Positions 5,010 to 19,678 of a stretch of DNA of 38,644 nt are shown piece by piece. Both the position numbers and the translations under genes were made by a program. A model generated the notes under the pieces. That model was not told the DNA's origin, did not search any database, and saw only the letters and a program-made list of their open reading frames with translations. The number at the start of each line of letters is the position of its first letter. The stretch's first letter is position 1. The DNA is taken from assembly GCA_007130825.1 (NCBI GenBank), contig SLRT01000079.1, forward strand, positions 1 to 38,644, given 5' to 3'. Source of the DNA: Syntrophomonadaceae bacterium. GTDB taxonomy: Bacteria; Bacillota; Dethiobacteria; DTU022.

Positions 5010-5034
5010 CAGAACTAAAGTGGGAGGTATGATT

Positions 5035-5658
5035 ATGAACGAGAAAAAAACAGGAAAGAAAAACATGGAAAATAAAAAATACGCAGCAGACCAAGAAGAA
5101 CATGAAGAAATCGAAGAAACTGGTAAAGATGATCATGGTAGTCACAAAAATGATCTGGATGTAAAACTCGAACAACTGCACAGTGAACTTGAAGCAGAAA
5201 AAGAAAGACACATGCGCACCCGGGCTGATTTCGACAATTATCGCAAGCGGATGGAACGCGAAGTGGAAACAAAACGCATTCATGCAAAAAAAGATATTCT
5301 CCTTGACCTGCTGACTTTTTTTTTTTTTTTTTAACAAGCCCGAAAACAGGTTCAGGATCCTGCCGCAGCTGAAGGAATCAACATCATGGCGCGGCAGTTC
5401 TATGAACTTCTAAATAAACACGGGGTCAGGCCGGTCGAGTGCCTGGGCAAACCGTTTGACCCTGAAAACCAGGAAGGAATAGGCTATGTTGAAACCGATC
5501 GATACCCGGCGGGCTGTGTGGCCGAAGAAATCTGCACCGGCTATCAGCTGGGTGACATCTTGCTTAAACCGGCCCGGGTGATGGTTGCCCGGAACCCGGC
5601 GGAAGGAAACAATAAAGAAAACGGCGATCAAACAAATCAGGACGAAGGCGAACAGTAG
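5035..5658 (+). pseudogene. grpE: grpE, nucleotide exchange factor, interrupted by a 17-T run and in-frame stop
   Basis: GrpE releases ADP from DnaK. Translation from the ATG at 5035 (GGGAGG site 7 bases upstream) gives an acidic N-terminus, a coiled coil and RADFDNYRKRMEREVE, then reaches a run of 17 T (5316-5332) and stops at TAA 5332-5334. The same frame resumes directly after it, QARKQVQDPAAAEG, and continues to HGVRPVECLGKPFDP and the C-terminal beta domain, ending at 5658. The broken section has exactly the length expected for the family's TFFDNFEQA-type segment, so nothing is inserted or lost; bases appear overwritten by T. Reconstructed length is about 207 residues, normal for GrpE. 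A base-calling or assembly error is the likeliest explanation, because the rest of the chaperone operon is intact; a true inactivating mutation is possible. Confidence 0.85.
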
Positions 5659-14813: not shown

Positions 14814-15188
14814 TTAAAAGTTCAATATTGCATCGGCATCCAGGGCCAGGTCATTTAAGGTGGCTGCCCCGGCAATTGTCGCTTCTTCAACTAAATCTTC
14901 TGCCTTAATTTCGCCTCCGAATAGCTGCATGCTCTGCTGGCAGGCCATGATTTTAATCCCCTGGCCGGCAGTTTGCTGCAGCACTTCCTTGAGGGTTGGG
15001 AACTCACCGATTTTTACTTTTTCCGCTTCTCCCTTAACCAGGTTTTTCAAACCAAGACCCAGGAAATAAACTGTAGCCTCCACGCCCATCGCTTTTGCCG
15101 TCTGGGCCAGGATCAAAGGAGAATACAGCCTGTTCGGGGTATCGGTCCCGCTGGTCTGCACATAAAGGATTTTTTTCGCTTCAGCCAT
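14814..15188 (-). CDS. DsrE/DsrF-family sulfur-relay protein
   Basis: Small cytosolic protein of 124 residues with the DsrE fold. The N-terminus KKILYVQTSGTDTPNRLYSPL and the single conserved Cys83 in KIMACQQSM fit proteins that carry sulfur as a persulfide. It starts 1 base after the stop of the TusA-like gene, with a GAGGAGG site, and is the last gene of the iscS-iscU operon. TusA and DsrE-like domains are found fused in YedF-type proteins of other bacteria; here they are neighbouring separate genes. Partner and acceptor are unknown. Confidence 0.82.
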   Translation of the reverse strand: MAEAKKILYVQTSGTDTPNRLYSPLILAQTAKAMGVEATVYFLGLGLKNLVKGEAEKVKIGEFPTLKEVLQQTAGQGIKIMACQQSMQLFGGEIKAEDLVEEATIAGAATLNDLALDADAILNF

Positions 15189-15189
15189 G

Positions 15190-15549
15190 TTATGAAACCT
15201 CCTCGCTTCCTTTTAGGATAAAAAAGTGGTATTCTTCGCCATTCTGCTGCATTTTCACCAACTGATGCCCGGCCCTTTTAGCCCAGCGGGGGATATCTTC
15301 CTCTGATGCCGGGTCATCTGCAATCAACTCCATCACCTCCCTGTCTTCCAGTTGATCTATCTCTTCTTTTGCCCGCATTACCGGTACCGGACAGTACAAC
15401 CCGACACAATCAACCCGGTGAACCTTAAACCTGCCATCATTATTGCAGGTATACTTTTCCGTACCGGGTTCAGGACATATCGGTTGATCACAGAAAGGGC
15501 AGCTGCATTGGCTCTTGTTTATTTCAACATTCAGGTTTTCATCGTTCAT
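15190..15549 (-). CDS. TusA-like sulfur carrier with Cys-rich N-terminal extension
   Basis: The C-terminal two thirds is a TusA (SirA/YeeD) domain: VDCVGLYCPVPVMRAKEEI, with Cys53 in the CPxP motif as the expected sulfur-carrying residue. The first 40 residues add five cysteines (C15, C17, C20, C25, C35; CSCPFCDQPIC), which could bind zinc or an Fe-S cluster, an unusual extension for TusA. Length is 119 residues instead of about 80. GGGAGG lies 8 bases before the ATG. It follows iscU after a 133-base gap containing a small hairpin and directly precedes the dsrE-like gene. Confidence 0.82.
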   Translation of the reverse strand: MNDENLNVEINKSQCSCPFCDQPICPEPGTEKYTCNNDGRFKVHRVDCVGLYCPVPVMRAKEEIDQLEDREVMELIADDPASEEDIPRWAKRAGHQLVKMQQNGEEYHFFILKGSEEVS

Positions 15550-15682: not shown

Positions 15683-16078
15683 TCAAGAACTGCTGCCTGC
15701 TTCGACCTTTTGTTTTTCCATGTAATCTGTTATTGCTTTGTGCAGAGCATCGGCTCCGAGATTGGAACAGTGCATCTTGTTGCCAGGCAAACCGCCAAGC
15801 TCTTCAGCTACCTGCTTGTTGGTAATCTTCAAAGCTTCTTCCAGGGTTTTGCCTTTGGCCATTTCTGAAACCATGCTTGAAACGGCTATAGCGGCGCCGC
15901 AGCCGAAAGTGAAATACTTGACATCCTCGATGCGGTTATCTTTAACCTTGATCGTGAATTTCATCATATCACCGCACACCGGGTTTCCTACTTCGCCGAT
16001 GCCGTCGGGCTCGCTGACTTCACCGATATTACGGGGATTAGTAAAATGTTCCATAACTTTCTCACTGTACTCGGGCAT
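15683..16078 (-). CDS. iscU: IscU/NifU-type Fe-S cluster scaffold
   Basis: Scaffold on which [2Fe-2S] clusters are built, 131 residues. The cluster ligands are all present: C35 and D37 (NPVCGDMMKF), C60 (FGCGAAIAVSS) and H103-C104 (KMHCSNLGADAL). The HscA-binding motif LPPVK is replaced by LPGNK, which fits the absence of hscA/hscB in the operon. The ATG at 16078 is 8 bases after GGAGGG; the ATG two codons earlier is too close to it. It overlaps the end of the iscS-like gene by 17 bases, so the two are coupled. Confidence 0.93.
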   Translation of the reverse strand: MPEYSEKVMEHFTNPRNIGEVSEPDGIGEVGNPVCGDMMKFTIKVKDNRIEDVKYFTFGCGAAIAVSSMVSEMAKGKTLEEALKITNKQVAEELGGLPGNKMHCSNLGADALHKAITDYMEKQKVEAGSSS

Positions 16079-17267
16079 TGTCATTTCCCTCCTTAAGATG
16101 CTGGTGGTAAAGCGGTGACATATTTCTCAGCAGTCCTGAAACCTGGCCCAGATTTTCGGTAATGTATGGTATGTCTTCTTTACTGCTCTCTTTGCCCAGG
16201 CTTAAAAGTAAAGATCCCTGGGCCAGTTCCGGGGGTAAGCCGAGCGCTCCCAGGACGTGGGAAGATTTTAAAGCCTGTGAAGTGCAGGAAGATCCGCTTG
16301 AAACATAAATACCGGCCATGTTCAGGCGCATCAGCAGGGCCTCTCCCTCGACAAATTCAACGGAAATATTAAGGTTACGGGGCAGGCGCTTTTCAGGGTG
16401 CCCGTTCAAATGCAAATGAGGTATCTCTTTAAACAAACCAGCCTTAAGCTGATCCCTGATTGCCGACACTCTTTGCGACCTTTCATCTAGCGATTGATAA
16501 GCCAGCCTGGCTGCTTCTCCCAGGCCAACAATAGCCGGCACATTTTCGGTTCCGGCCCGTAAGCCTTTTTCCTGGATACCGCCTTCGATTAAAGGACGCA
16601 GGCGTATACCGCGGCGCACAAACAGGGCAGCAGCTCCTTTCGGACCGTAAAACTGGTCGGCGGCCAGGCTTAACATATCAACACCTGTTTTTTTTACGTC
16701 AAGTGGAATCCAGCCGGCGGCTGCAGCAGCATCGGTGTGAAAAGGAATTTCATTTTCGTGGGCCACAGAGATCAGTTTTTCAACCGGTTGAATGGTTCCG
16801 ATTTCCGGGTTGGCTGTCTGTATGGAAATAAGGATGGTTTGATCGGTAATCGCAGCCGCCAATTGTGCAGGATCAACAGTCCCATGACGATCAACCGGAA
16901 GCAGGGTAACCTCGAAACCTTCTTTTTGCAGGCTCTTGAGCTGATTTAGAACTGAGAAATGCTCGATTGAAGAAGATATAATATGGTTACCTTTCTTCTT
17001 ATTTGCCGCAACCAGCCCTTTAAGGGCCAGATTGTTCGCTTCTGAAGCGGAAGCGGTAAATATAATTTGTTTTTCATCAACTCCTTCAGCCCCAATGAGG
17101 AGACCCACTTTTTCACGGGCCTCTTCCAGGGCCCGCCTTGGCGTTTCACCAAGAGCATGGCCGCTTGATGGATTGCCGTAATGTTCAGTAAAAAAAGGAA
17201 TCATCGCCTGCAATACACCCTGATCTACCGGTGCAGCTGCTGTATAATCTAAATTAATCGTTTTCAT
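16062..17267 (-). CDS. iscS: IscS/NifS-like protein lacking the PLP-binding lysine
   Basis: Fold-type I aminotransferase-like protein of the cysteine desulfurase family, 401 residues, partner of IscU. The family framework is clear: YGNPSSGH, ASASEANNLALKG, H103 in IEHFSVL, D179 in HTDAA, RAGTENVPAIVGLGEA, and Cys328 in SSGSSCTS. However, the motif normally written S-x-H-K-F/I-YGPKG reads LSLAADQFYGPKG: Gln205 occupies the place of the Schiff-base lysine and Asp204 that of the His. ANNEIG is ANPEIG, and DAAQA is DAAAA. Classical desulfurase chemistry is therefore doubtful. It may serve as a structural or sulfide-handling partner of IscU, as I recall for reduced 'minimal' ISC systems of anaerobes. 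The ATG at 17267 follows AAAGGG. Confidence 0.9.
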   Translation of the reverse strand: MKTINLDYTAAAPVDQGVLQAMIPFFTEHYGNPSSGHALGETPRRALEEAREKVGLLIGAEGVDEKQIIFTASASEANNLALKGLVAANKKKGNHIISSSIEHFSVLNQLKSLQKEGFEVTLLPVDRHGTVDPAQLAAAITDQTILISIQTANPEIGTIQPVEKLISVAHENEIPFHTDAAAAAGWIPLDVKKTGVDMLSLAADQFYGPKGAAALFVRRGIRLRPLIEGGIQEKGLRAGTENVPAIVGLGEAARLAYQSLDERSQRVSAIRDQLKAGLFKEIPHLHLNGHPEKRLPRNLNISVEFVEGEALLMRLNMAGIYVSSGSSCTSQALKSSHVLGALGLPPELAQGSLLLSLGKESSKEDIPYITENLGQVSGLLRNMSPLYHQHLKEGNDNARVQ

Positions 17268-17325
17268 AAAAAACATCCCTTTCCATTGTTCATATCTTGA
17301 CTTAATCAAGGTTTTATTCTATAAT

Positions 17326-17364: not shown

Positions 17365-17460
17365 CCTCTTATTTGTTAGAGGAAACAAGACAGTCTTCGT
17401 AGAAATAGGAATTTACGCTTACGCGTAATAATAAACCATATTATAAATAAGGAGAGATTG

Positions 17461-17961
17461 ATGATGAAAACAAAAGAAAACCTGATGGCCGCCTTTGCCG
17501 GTGAATCGCAGGCCAACCGCAAGTACCTGGCCTTTGCCCGGAAAGCTGAAAAAGACGGATACAAAAATGTCGGCCGGTTATTTCAAGCTGTCGCTGAGGC
17601 AGAAACCATTCATGCCCTGAAACATTTTGAAATAGCAGAACAGGTAGGCTCTACAAGCGACAACCTCGAGGCGGCAGCCGCAGGCGAACATTATGAATTC
17701 AGTGAGATGTACCCTGAATTTATTGAAGCGGCAAAAAAAGAGGGCCAGGATAAAGCGCTGCAAACTTTCGAGTATGCCAATGCCGCCGAAAAAGTACACG
17801 GCGGGATCTTCAGGGAATTAAAAGAAAAAGTGGCGGCAGGCTCCGATGCCGAAGAAAAAGTAATCCACTTATGCCCGGTTTGTGGTTGGGTCGGCATGGA
17901 ACCGGCTCCCGATCAGTGTCCGATCTGCAATACTGCCAAAAAAGCTTTTAAACAATTCTAA
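17461..17961 (+). CDS. rbr: Rubrerythrin
   Basis: Non-haem diiron peroxidase that removes H2O2 in anaerobes using electrons from rubredoxin-like centres. The ferritin-like domain shows the paired carboxylate motifs (FAGESQANRKYLAFARKAE, AEAETIHALKH, FEYANAAEKVHGGIF). A C-terminal rubredoxin domain follows with HLCPVCGWVG and DQCPICNTAKKAF, giving four Cys ligands. About 166 residues is the short form common in Clostridia. Two adjacent ATGs (17461, 17464) follow GGAGAG; either could be used. It is divergent from the iscS operon, and its stop is only 23 bases from the end of the converging DUF1722 gene. Confidence 0.95.
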   Translation: MMKTKENLMAAFAGESQANRKYLAFARKAEKDGYKNVGRLFQAVAEAETIHALKHFEIAEQVGSTSDNLEAAAAGEHYEFSEMYPEFIEAAKKEGQDKALQTFEYANAAEKVHGGIFRELKEKVAAGSDAEEKVIHLCPVCGWVGMEPAPDQCPICNTAKKAFKQF

Positions 17962-17984: not shown

Positions 17985-18704
17985 CTAGTATTGATCTGTG
18001 AAGTCGGCAAATATTGTCGAATGCAGAAGGTATGAGCAATTATACTTCCGGGCCAGACCGTATATAAACGGGACCAGGGCCGGGAGCTGTTCAGATTTAA
18101 GTTTTAAGTATGTTTCTTTTTCAGCTTCCGAGGCTTCTTTTTTAAAATAACCCCAGAGGTGATCAACTACGTTGGTCAGAGCCGGCACAAAAACCGGCTT
18201 TCCCATGATCTCTAAAATCTGCCCGATAAGATGCCCCTCTTCTTCAAGGGGGCATCTTTCTTTTAAGCGTAAATGCGCCTGGATATCCTTATAGTGGTTG
18301 TAACCGCGGGCCATGACTGAATACTTGTGGTGTGCCCAGAATTCAAAGGCATTTTTAGGCAGGGGTATGCGTCCGGCCCGGTTTCTTTCCCGGTATTTTT
18401 GTTTGAGAATATTTATTTGCTCCACGGGAGTATCAACATAGACCAATGCCGGGGCCGGATCATTATCCCTGCAGGCTGCAAGTGGGCTGGCATGGTTGTA
18501 ACTTCGCAGTTTTATCTCTAAAACATTCAAATCGTGCCTGCGTTTCAGGCAATTAAGCTTACCTTTCCAGCGCCGTGTTTCAGGATGTGCCGCATAACCT
18601 TTCTTTTCCCCTCCGATAATATTGGCCAGGGCATGGATCTCAGCATGTTGGCCGAACAGATTTTGTCTTGAAAGGTAGCCCGGATGTATATCCCAAACAC
18701 GCAC
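17985..18704 (-). CDS. Pyrimidine-dimer glycosylase-like domain fused to DUF1722 (YbgA)
   Basis: Two-domain cytosolic protein of 239 residues. Residues 1-75 (MRVWDIHPGYLSRQNL ... KKGYAAHPETRRWKGK) resemble the pyrimidine dimer DNA glycosylase (Pyr_excise) family. Residues about 110-235 (FEFWAHHKYSVMARGYNHYKDI ... VVDHLWGYFKKEASEAEKE ... LVPFIYGLARKY) match DUF1722, which in other bacteria is attached to photolyase-linked genes. The combination points to repair of UV-type lesions, but this is inference. The start is a GTG at 18704 about 10 bases after AAAGGA. Convergent with rubrerythrin, divergent from rubredoxin. Confidence 0.72.
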   Translation of the reverse strand: MRVWDIHPGYLSRQNLFGQHAEIHALANIIGGEKKGYAAHPETRRWKGKLNCLKRRHDLNVLEIKLRSYNHASPLAACRDNDPAPALVYVDTPVEQINILKQKYRERNRAGRIPLPKNAFEFWAHHKYSVMARGYNHYKDIQAHLRLKERCPLEEEGHLIGQILEIMGKPVFVPALTNVVDHLWGYFKKEASEAEKETYLKLKSEQLPALVPFIYGLARKYNCSYLLHSTIFADFTDQY

Positions 18705-19346: not shown

Positions 19347-19619
19347 TTAAAGCTCTTTAACAACAAAGCCTCCAAAAATCCAAAAACCGACCCAGTTTAT
19401 GGAGAACGTTTTGCCATACATTTCGTTACGGACATAGAAGGGTATACCCTCTACTTCTGTTTTCTGATAATTTTCTTCTTCTTCTGGTTTACCTGCTTTC
19501 ACGGCAGGGGTTACAACTGAACTCCCTCACCCACCGCGGCAAACGAGGTAAAGGGTATACGCCCTGGAACCGTTCTTCATTTTTTCCAGGGCAGCAGGCT
19601 TAATTTTTAATCTGGCCAT
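19347..19619 (-). CDS. CC/Se-motif family selenoprotein (UGA read as selenocysteine)
   Basis: On the minus strand an ATG at 19619, with a perfect AAAGGAGGT site 6 bases upstream, opens a frame that meets TGA at codon 31 (19529-19527). It then continues uninterrupted to TAA at 19349-19347, 90 codons in all. The product reads LVCRGG-U-GSSVVTPAVKAGKP, then VEGIPFYV and a hydrophobic end VGFWIFGGFVV. This layout (Cys/Sec in a Gly-rich turn, a GKP-x5-Y motif, a beta-rich C-terminus ending GFWIF) is the one I recall for the small 'CC/Se motif family (seleno)protein' of anaerobes, of unknown function. A hairpin follows the UGA at the right distance for a bacterial SECIS. The extended -10 promoter at 19684-19679 supports an independent gene. 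Reading stops at residue 30 if Sec is not inserted. Confidence 0.82.
19492..19508 (-). promoter_or_regulatory. Bacterial SECIS-like hairpin
   Basis: On the minus strand, 18 bases after the in-frame UGA, CCUGC pairs with GCAGG around the loop CGUGAAA. The stem size, the GU near the 5' side of the apical loop and the 23-base distance from UGA to loop fit the loose consensus of bacterial selenocysteine insertion elements. Confidence 0.65.
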
Positions 19620-19678
19620 TTAAGGACCTCCTTTGCCAGCCTGATATTCTGACTGGACATTTGTTAATAATCATTCCT

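Follow-up and report, generated by a model that had tools for sequence, protein, structure and literature searches.

A UGA-containing gene of the CC/Se-motif family in a Syntrophomonadaceae bacterium: a very probable selenoprotein with a predicted A-type iron-sulfur carrier fold

The closest described system to the gene examined here is the protein family NF041239, "CC/Se motif family (seleno)protein" (Moor_selen_rel, NCBIfam). It is catalogued as a known selenoprotein family under the name "hypothetical protein," with the motif CxxU (PMC13188914), which is a descriptive motif from that source rather than NCBI's criterion for membership. The same source describes a model of the bacterial SECIS (bSECIS) with an apical loop of 3 to 9 nt, an upper stem of 4 to 16 bp, and a loop located 16 to 37 nt after the UGA; one of the two opening bases of the loop is a G, and the next base is often G or U (PMC13188914). 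Here, we compare these descriptions with a locus in a 38,644-nt stretch of DNA from a Syntrophomonadaceae bacterium (GCA_007130825.1, contig SLRT01000079.1), to which we refer as the window.

The gene lies on the minus strand. From an ATG at 19619, the frame runs for 30 codons to a TGA at 19529 to 19527, continues for 59 codons, and closes with a TAA ending at 19347. The initial annotation had described this layout together with a perfect Shine-Dalgarno sequence, and we read both features in the sequence:

19347 to 19619, minus strand: CC/Se-motif family gene, predicted selenoprotein of 90 residues with Sec at residue 31; NF041239 score of 47.2 bits (curated cutoff 40); TGA kept in 53 family genes
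19527 to 19529, minus strand: UGA codon (codon 31), predicted to be read as selenocysteine; the 37 genes of the taxonomic family that bear a TGA, the window's among them, all have it in this column
19626 to 19633, minus strand: strong Shine-Dalgarno sequence AAGGAGGT, 7 nt 5' of the ATG at 19619, by direct reading
19492 to 19508, minus strand: candidate bacterial SECIS hairpin CCUGC-CGUGAAA-GCAGG (5-bp stem, 7-nt loop), on the grounds of conservation, covariation, and fit to the bSECIS model

With U at codon 31, the product would be MARLKIKPAALEKMKNGSRAYTLYLVCRGGUGSSVVTPAVKAGKPEEEENYQKTEVEGIPFYVRNEMYGKTFSINWVGFWIFGGFVVKEL. Standard gene-finding would overlook the gene because its UGA stop codon is very probably read as selenocysteine, in agreement with the earlier remark that the split makes it easy to lose. 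Promoter and terminator scans around the gene returned nothing above chance.

The match to NF041239 spans the whole length of the protein (residues 3 to 88 against profile positions 2 to 89 of 91). The motif position of the family is occupied here by the TGA codon, and all 27 aligned members also carry TGA (written C) at this position. The window protein does not contain CxxU, its sequence CRGGU being CxxxU instead. The initial annotation had pointed to a family of CC/Se-motif proteins of about 90 residues with a Gly-rich turn followed by GKP; that family can now be identified as NF041239. Two refinements are needed: the partner Cys is placed as CxxxU here and is not conserved, and the protein is predicted to fold like an A-type Fe-S carrier. 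We conclude that the window gene is an additional member of an already catalogued, uncharacterised selenoprotein family.

NF041239 matches are present in 29 of 43 genomes of the same taxonomic family and in 45 of 98 genomes of the class. The 98 class-level genomes yielded 53 genes, counting that of the window, in which a single TGA occupies this column, 1 relative with two adjacent TGAs, and 16 relatives lacking TGA, 15 of which are complete and 1 of which is interrupted by a contig end. In most of the TGA-less forms, CC replaces the Sec (e.g., SRGGGCCGGCSF), and most of them have Cys at the column aligned with codon 31. A scan of GTDB contigs gave ten relatives, from eight Syntrophomonadaceae MAGs and two Bacillota MAGs; viral contigs contained none. 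Homologues with Sec or Cys aligned at codon 31, which the selenoprotein reading needs, therefore exist in the form of 53 TGA genes and most of the TGA-less forms. Because the TGA occupies one position in 53 family genes, close relatives among them, a sequencing error at 19527 to 19529 is very unlikely.

The CCTGC-CGTGAAA-GCAGG hairpin (19508 to 19492) starts exactly 18 nt after the UGA, where the initial annotation had placed a hairpin with a GU-containing loop, and it is conserved at the level of individual bases in relatives. Its 5-bp stem, its 7-nt loop (CGUGAAA, with G as the second base and U as the third), and the 23 nt between the UGA and the loop agree with the bacterial model, and we predict on these grounds that it is a SECIS. 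The hairpin has the same register in 51 of the 53 Sec genes. The exact 17-nt motif CCTGCCGTGnnnGCAGG is present once in the window and in 40 of the 53 Sec genes, compared to none of the 16 TGA-less forms; as a pattern, the 17-nt hairpin occurs 28 times in the 43 related genomes, compared to 1 occurrence of a reversed-pattern control. The Ala codon GCC and the Val codon GTG within the hairpin do not vary at their wobble positions in any of the 37 Sec genes that belong to the taxonomic family; across the genes of the window, GCC accounts for 46% of Ala codons and GTG for 27% of Val codons, and the wobble sites adjoining the two codons, which serve as a control, are mixed. Compensatory changes occur at pair 3 (U-A, C-G, and A-U among Sec genes); the covariation score is 0.212, compared to 0.095 for shuffled alignments, and the score is lower at all slid positions. 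A near-frozen 17-nt hairpin within a coding stretch represents a clear natural case of an RNA constraint fixing synonymous sites.

We also folded the bases after the UGA, a check proposed in the initial annotation. When a segment of 45 to 66 nt starting at the UGA was folded alone, another structure was preferred (hairpin probability of approximately 0.15); when at least the first 3 to 6 nt after the UGA were omitted, the hairpin probability was at least 0.94. These first few nucleotides would lie within the mRNA channel of a ribosome paused at the UGA. Plain folding of the stretch after the UGA performed no better than shuffles, and the free energy of the hairpin is not special, with 940 of 2,000 synonymous shuffles being as good; the evidence for the hairpin is therefore conservation and covariation, not energy. 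An Rfam search of the region gave chance matches only and no match to a SECIS model. The folding of the whole segment, along with the default genetic code, is what speaks for a true stop, with the two pieces representing a decayed pseudogene or two small genes. We consider this very improbable, given that the frame, the TGA, and the hairpin are kept in 53 genes from several families of one class and that the genome has a full Sec-decoding system.

That system comprises selA (581 bits), selB (379 bits), selD (358 bits), and tRNA-Sec (74 bits), all above curated cutoffs; selA, selB, and selD are clustered on one contig (C135), and tRNA-Sec is located on another (C2). In-frame TGAs are also found in the genome's selD, formate dehydrogenase (FdhA), and HesB-like genes. 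The genome thus carries the complete bacterial Sec-decoding trait (selA, selB, selD, and tRNA-Sec), and the organism is equipped both to make Sec and to insert it, as the initial annotation had predicted. The lack of selA, selB, and selC, which would have spoken against that prediction, is not what we find, since SelA, SelB, and tRNA-Sec are encoded. The presence of known selenoprotein genes with TGA elsewhere in the genome, the covarying SECIS-type hairpin, and the Cys in most TGA-less relatives at the aligned column also weigh against a UGA codon read as another amino acid (e.g., Trp, or near-cognate read-through), a reading with which the open frame through the TGA is compatible and to which we assign hardly any probability.

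Taken together, the NF041239 match, the Sec machinery, and the 53 TGA homologues support the original reading of a small CC/Se-type selenoprotein, and we consider it very probable, judging from sequence, that the gene encodes a 90-residue selenoprotein in which UGA31 is decoded as Sec. Because a conserved NF041239 frame is combined with a covarying hairpin at fixed distance and a full Sec set, we expect SelB, acting with Sec-tRNA, to place Sec at codon 31 once the hairpin just ahead of the ribosome has formed.

Several relatives depart from the plain form. An N-terminal lipoprotein signal (LSGC or LTGC) precedes the CC/Se domain in L048, L059, L061 (two tandem copies), L063, and L066, and these genes retain the TGA and the same hairpin. 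Apparently, they encode membrane-anchored, extracytoplasmic selenoproteins, and on the tree this branch has one origin. The relative with two adjacent in-frame TGAs (L128, G091:C103:11577-11762, minus strand; SGUUAAF) has a strong hairpin, CCCCATCA-GGTC-TGATGGGG, after them and is likely a double-Sec form. A TGA-less form with GGGCCGGCSF (L047, L058, L060, L062, L064, and L065) lies directly downstream of the same membrane protein, a putative CstA by our reading, at six of six loci.

Cysteines in the 53 Sec proteins are concentrated around the Sec, with 40 located within 5 residues of it, compared to 2 among 4,049 other residues. They occupy seven offsets from the Sec (−4, −3, −1, +1, +2, +3, and +4), and a tree built with the Sec loop left out implies 23 or more changes of offset, a rough count given that many forks are unresolved. 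The pattern resembles that of a partner residue that need not occupy one particular site, such as a resolving Cys on a flexible loop. No Cys is found near the Sec in 15 of the 53 proteins; an internal Se-S bond is therefore not universal, and these members must use an outside thiol or other chemistry.

We modeled the Sec form with AlphaFold2 from an alignment of 27 Sec sequences (pLDDT 88.5, pTM 0.74). Compared to solved structures, the model matched IscA first (Z of 9.4 over 82 residues), with non-A-type chains at 2.3 or below, and the top 10 Foldseek matches were all A-type Fe-S carriers or A-type-like, at modest strength (E of 3e-4, TM of approximately 0.6). An independent model of the Cys form, built from a separate alignment of TGA-less sequences (pLDDT 89.6), produced the same match list (IscA Z of 9.6, non-A-type chains at 2.2 or below). 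An A-type Fe-S carrier fold (IscA/SufA/ErpA) for the CC/Se protein is therefore well supported as a prediction. In sequence searches, the window protein had no match to PF01521 (Pfam) at E up to 0.1 or to TIGR01911 at E up to 0.01, and a PDB sequence search using the CC/Se profile returned nothing. Single CC/Se members gave weak matches to the IscA_HesB_Se and ErpA_rel models. A profile comparison with HesB-like selenoproteins of the same genomes placed Sec on Sec at a moderate probability (69%), and the Sec of the HesB-like proteins falls in turn on the ligand Cys that solved ErpA-like chains carry in their GGGCSG turn; by this chained alignment, the CC/Se Sec is predicted to occupy the position of the first cluster-ligand Cys of A-type carriers. 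The same comparison using the TGA-less set gave only a short, meaningless match.

A-type carriers conserve three ligand Cys, the first within the Gly-rich turn and the other two in a C-terminal CxC; the window protein has Sec at the first position and ends in FVVKEL without CxC. The A-type fold is predicted, yet the ligand set is incomplete, and the protein therefore falls outside the A-type carrier definition. The models suggest that the CC/Se family descends from the A-type iron-sulfur carrier group, and the assignment would place the "hypothetical" NF041239 family structurally among iron-sulfur carriers. The HesB-like genes show a regularity of their own: all 30 PF01521 matches in the 43 related genomes (L077 to L106) have one in-frame TGA each, most of these loci share a nearly fixed GACTCTGGATGAGTC-type hairpin after it, and the HesB-like gene of the window's genome is located close to tRNA-Sec.

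In the window, the CC/Se gene is solitary and divergent from a glycerate kinase gene. Near it are a rubredoxin-like ORF and the following genes:

17458 to 17961, plus strand: rubrerythrin (PF02915), a neighbor kept in other genera
16062 to 17309, minus strand: NifS-type cysteine desulfurase, a conserved neighbor
15683 to 16084, minus strand: NifU/IscU-type Fe-S scaffold (TIGR03419, 200.5 bits, cutoff 187.9)
15190 to 15549, minus strand: TusA-domain sulfur carrier protein (PF01206)
14814 to 15188, minus strand: DsrE-like sulfur carrier protein (PF02635)

In relatives from other genera, the gene order on one side has changed, and rubrerythrin and NifS still adjoin the CC/Se gene. These neighbors hint at, but do not prove, a connection with the handling of sulfur or iron-sulfur clusters and with stress from oxygen or peroxide; they form no operon with the gene, and their conservation may partly be vertical synteny. 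The TusA domain bears an N-terminal Cys-rich extension (SQCSCPFCDQPIC) and adjoins the DsrE-like gene and the NifS/NifU pair. A protein encoded at 17985 to 18704 (minus strand), matching Pyr_excise (pyrimidine dimer DNA glycosylase) and DUF1722, lies beside the CC/Se gene in many relatives. Elsewhere in the window, a GrpE-like frame (5020 to 5658) is broken at a run of approximately 17 T (near 5317 to 5333), with the remainder in another frame; the break may be an artifact of assembly or of the homopolymer, or the site may be genuinely slippery.

Given these observations, our tentative proposal, which we hold at slightly below even confidence, is that the protein uses Sec as a redox-active selenolate, either as a small redox protein of the thiol/peroxide type or as a handler of sulfur, selenium, or iron that is gated by redox state. 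The selenolate would sit at the tip of the Gly-rich loop and, where a Cys is nearby (C27 here, CxxxU), would form a reversible selenenylsulfide; the protein would work alongside the neighboring NifS, NifU, TusA/DsrE, and rubrerythrin proteins. The predicted carrier fold with Sec at the first ligand position, the NifS, NifU, TusA, and DsrE neighbors, and the weak IscA_HesB_Se and ErpA_rel matches could also indicate a selenoprotein that handles metal or Fe-S as an A-type-like carrier rather than acting as a redox enzyme, the Sec selenolate binding iron, a cluster, or another metal together with a Cys or a second subunit. The Sec form lacks both C-terminal ligand Cys of A-type carriers, and in many members Sec is the sole possible soft ligand, such that we regard metal handling as rather unlikely, though by no means negligible.

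Returning to a redox role, we find it an even call whether CC/Se proteins are a selenium-using offshoot of the A-type fold that lost its C-terminal ligands and took on a redox function, based on a single selenolate and a partner Cys that is "roving" around the same loop. In this view, an extracytoplasmic branch with a lipoprotein anchor arose from it once, as did a form in which two Sec residues are adjacent. Whether a metal-carrier fold was converted into a redox enzyme could be tested concretely and cheaply on the roving Cys, on the TGA-less forms, and on the lipoprotein branch. Possibly new here are the structural placement of the family, its roving Cys, and its branches with a lipoprotein anchor or a double Sec; our check of the literature was light, and an IscA-like fold may have been reported earlier.

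Compared to the NF041239 family as listed, the window protein shares the length of approximately 90 residues and the Sec or Cys within a Gly-rich turn; it differs in having its partner Cys at CxxxU, and among relatives the Cys site wanders or the Cys is missing. The A-type carriers IscA, SufA, and ErpA are the closest solved folds for two independent models, with Sec at their first ligand Cys by the chained alignment, but the CC/Se protein lacks the C-terminal CxC ligands and sequence identity is only about 10 to 15%. The HesB-like selenoprotein (PF01521; TIGR01911 and NF038090 in NCBIfam) has the predicted fold class in common with the CC/Se protein, their Sec columns align, and both are present as TGA genes in the window's genome. 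In contrast, the window protein has neither a PF01521 or TIGR01911 match nor a C-terminal Cys cluster, and the hairpin after the UGA differs, being GACUC-UGGAU-GAGUC in HesB-like genes. Finally, Allochromatium vinosum DsrR (PDB 2k4z) shares the IscA-like fold (Z of 8.1 and 8.7), although it has no Sec and belongs to a different sequence family. We take DsrR to be an IscA-like protein without Fe-S binding, and it would therefore be an earlier example of a protein with this fold that has lost the ligands.
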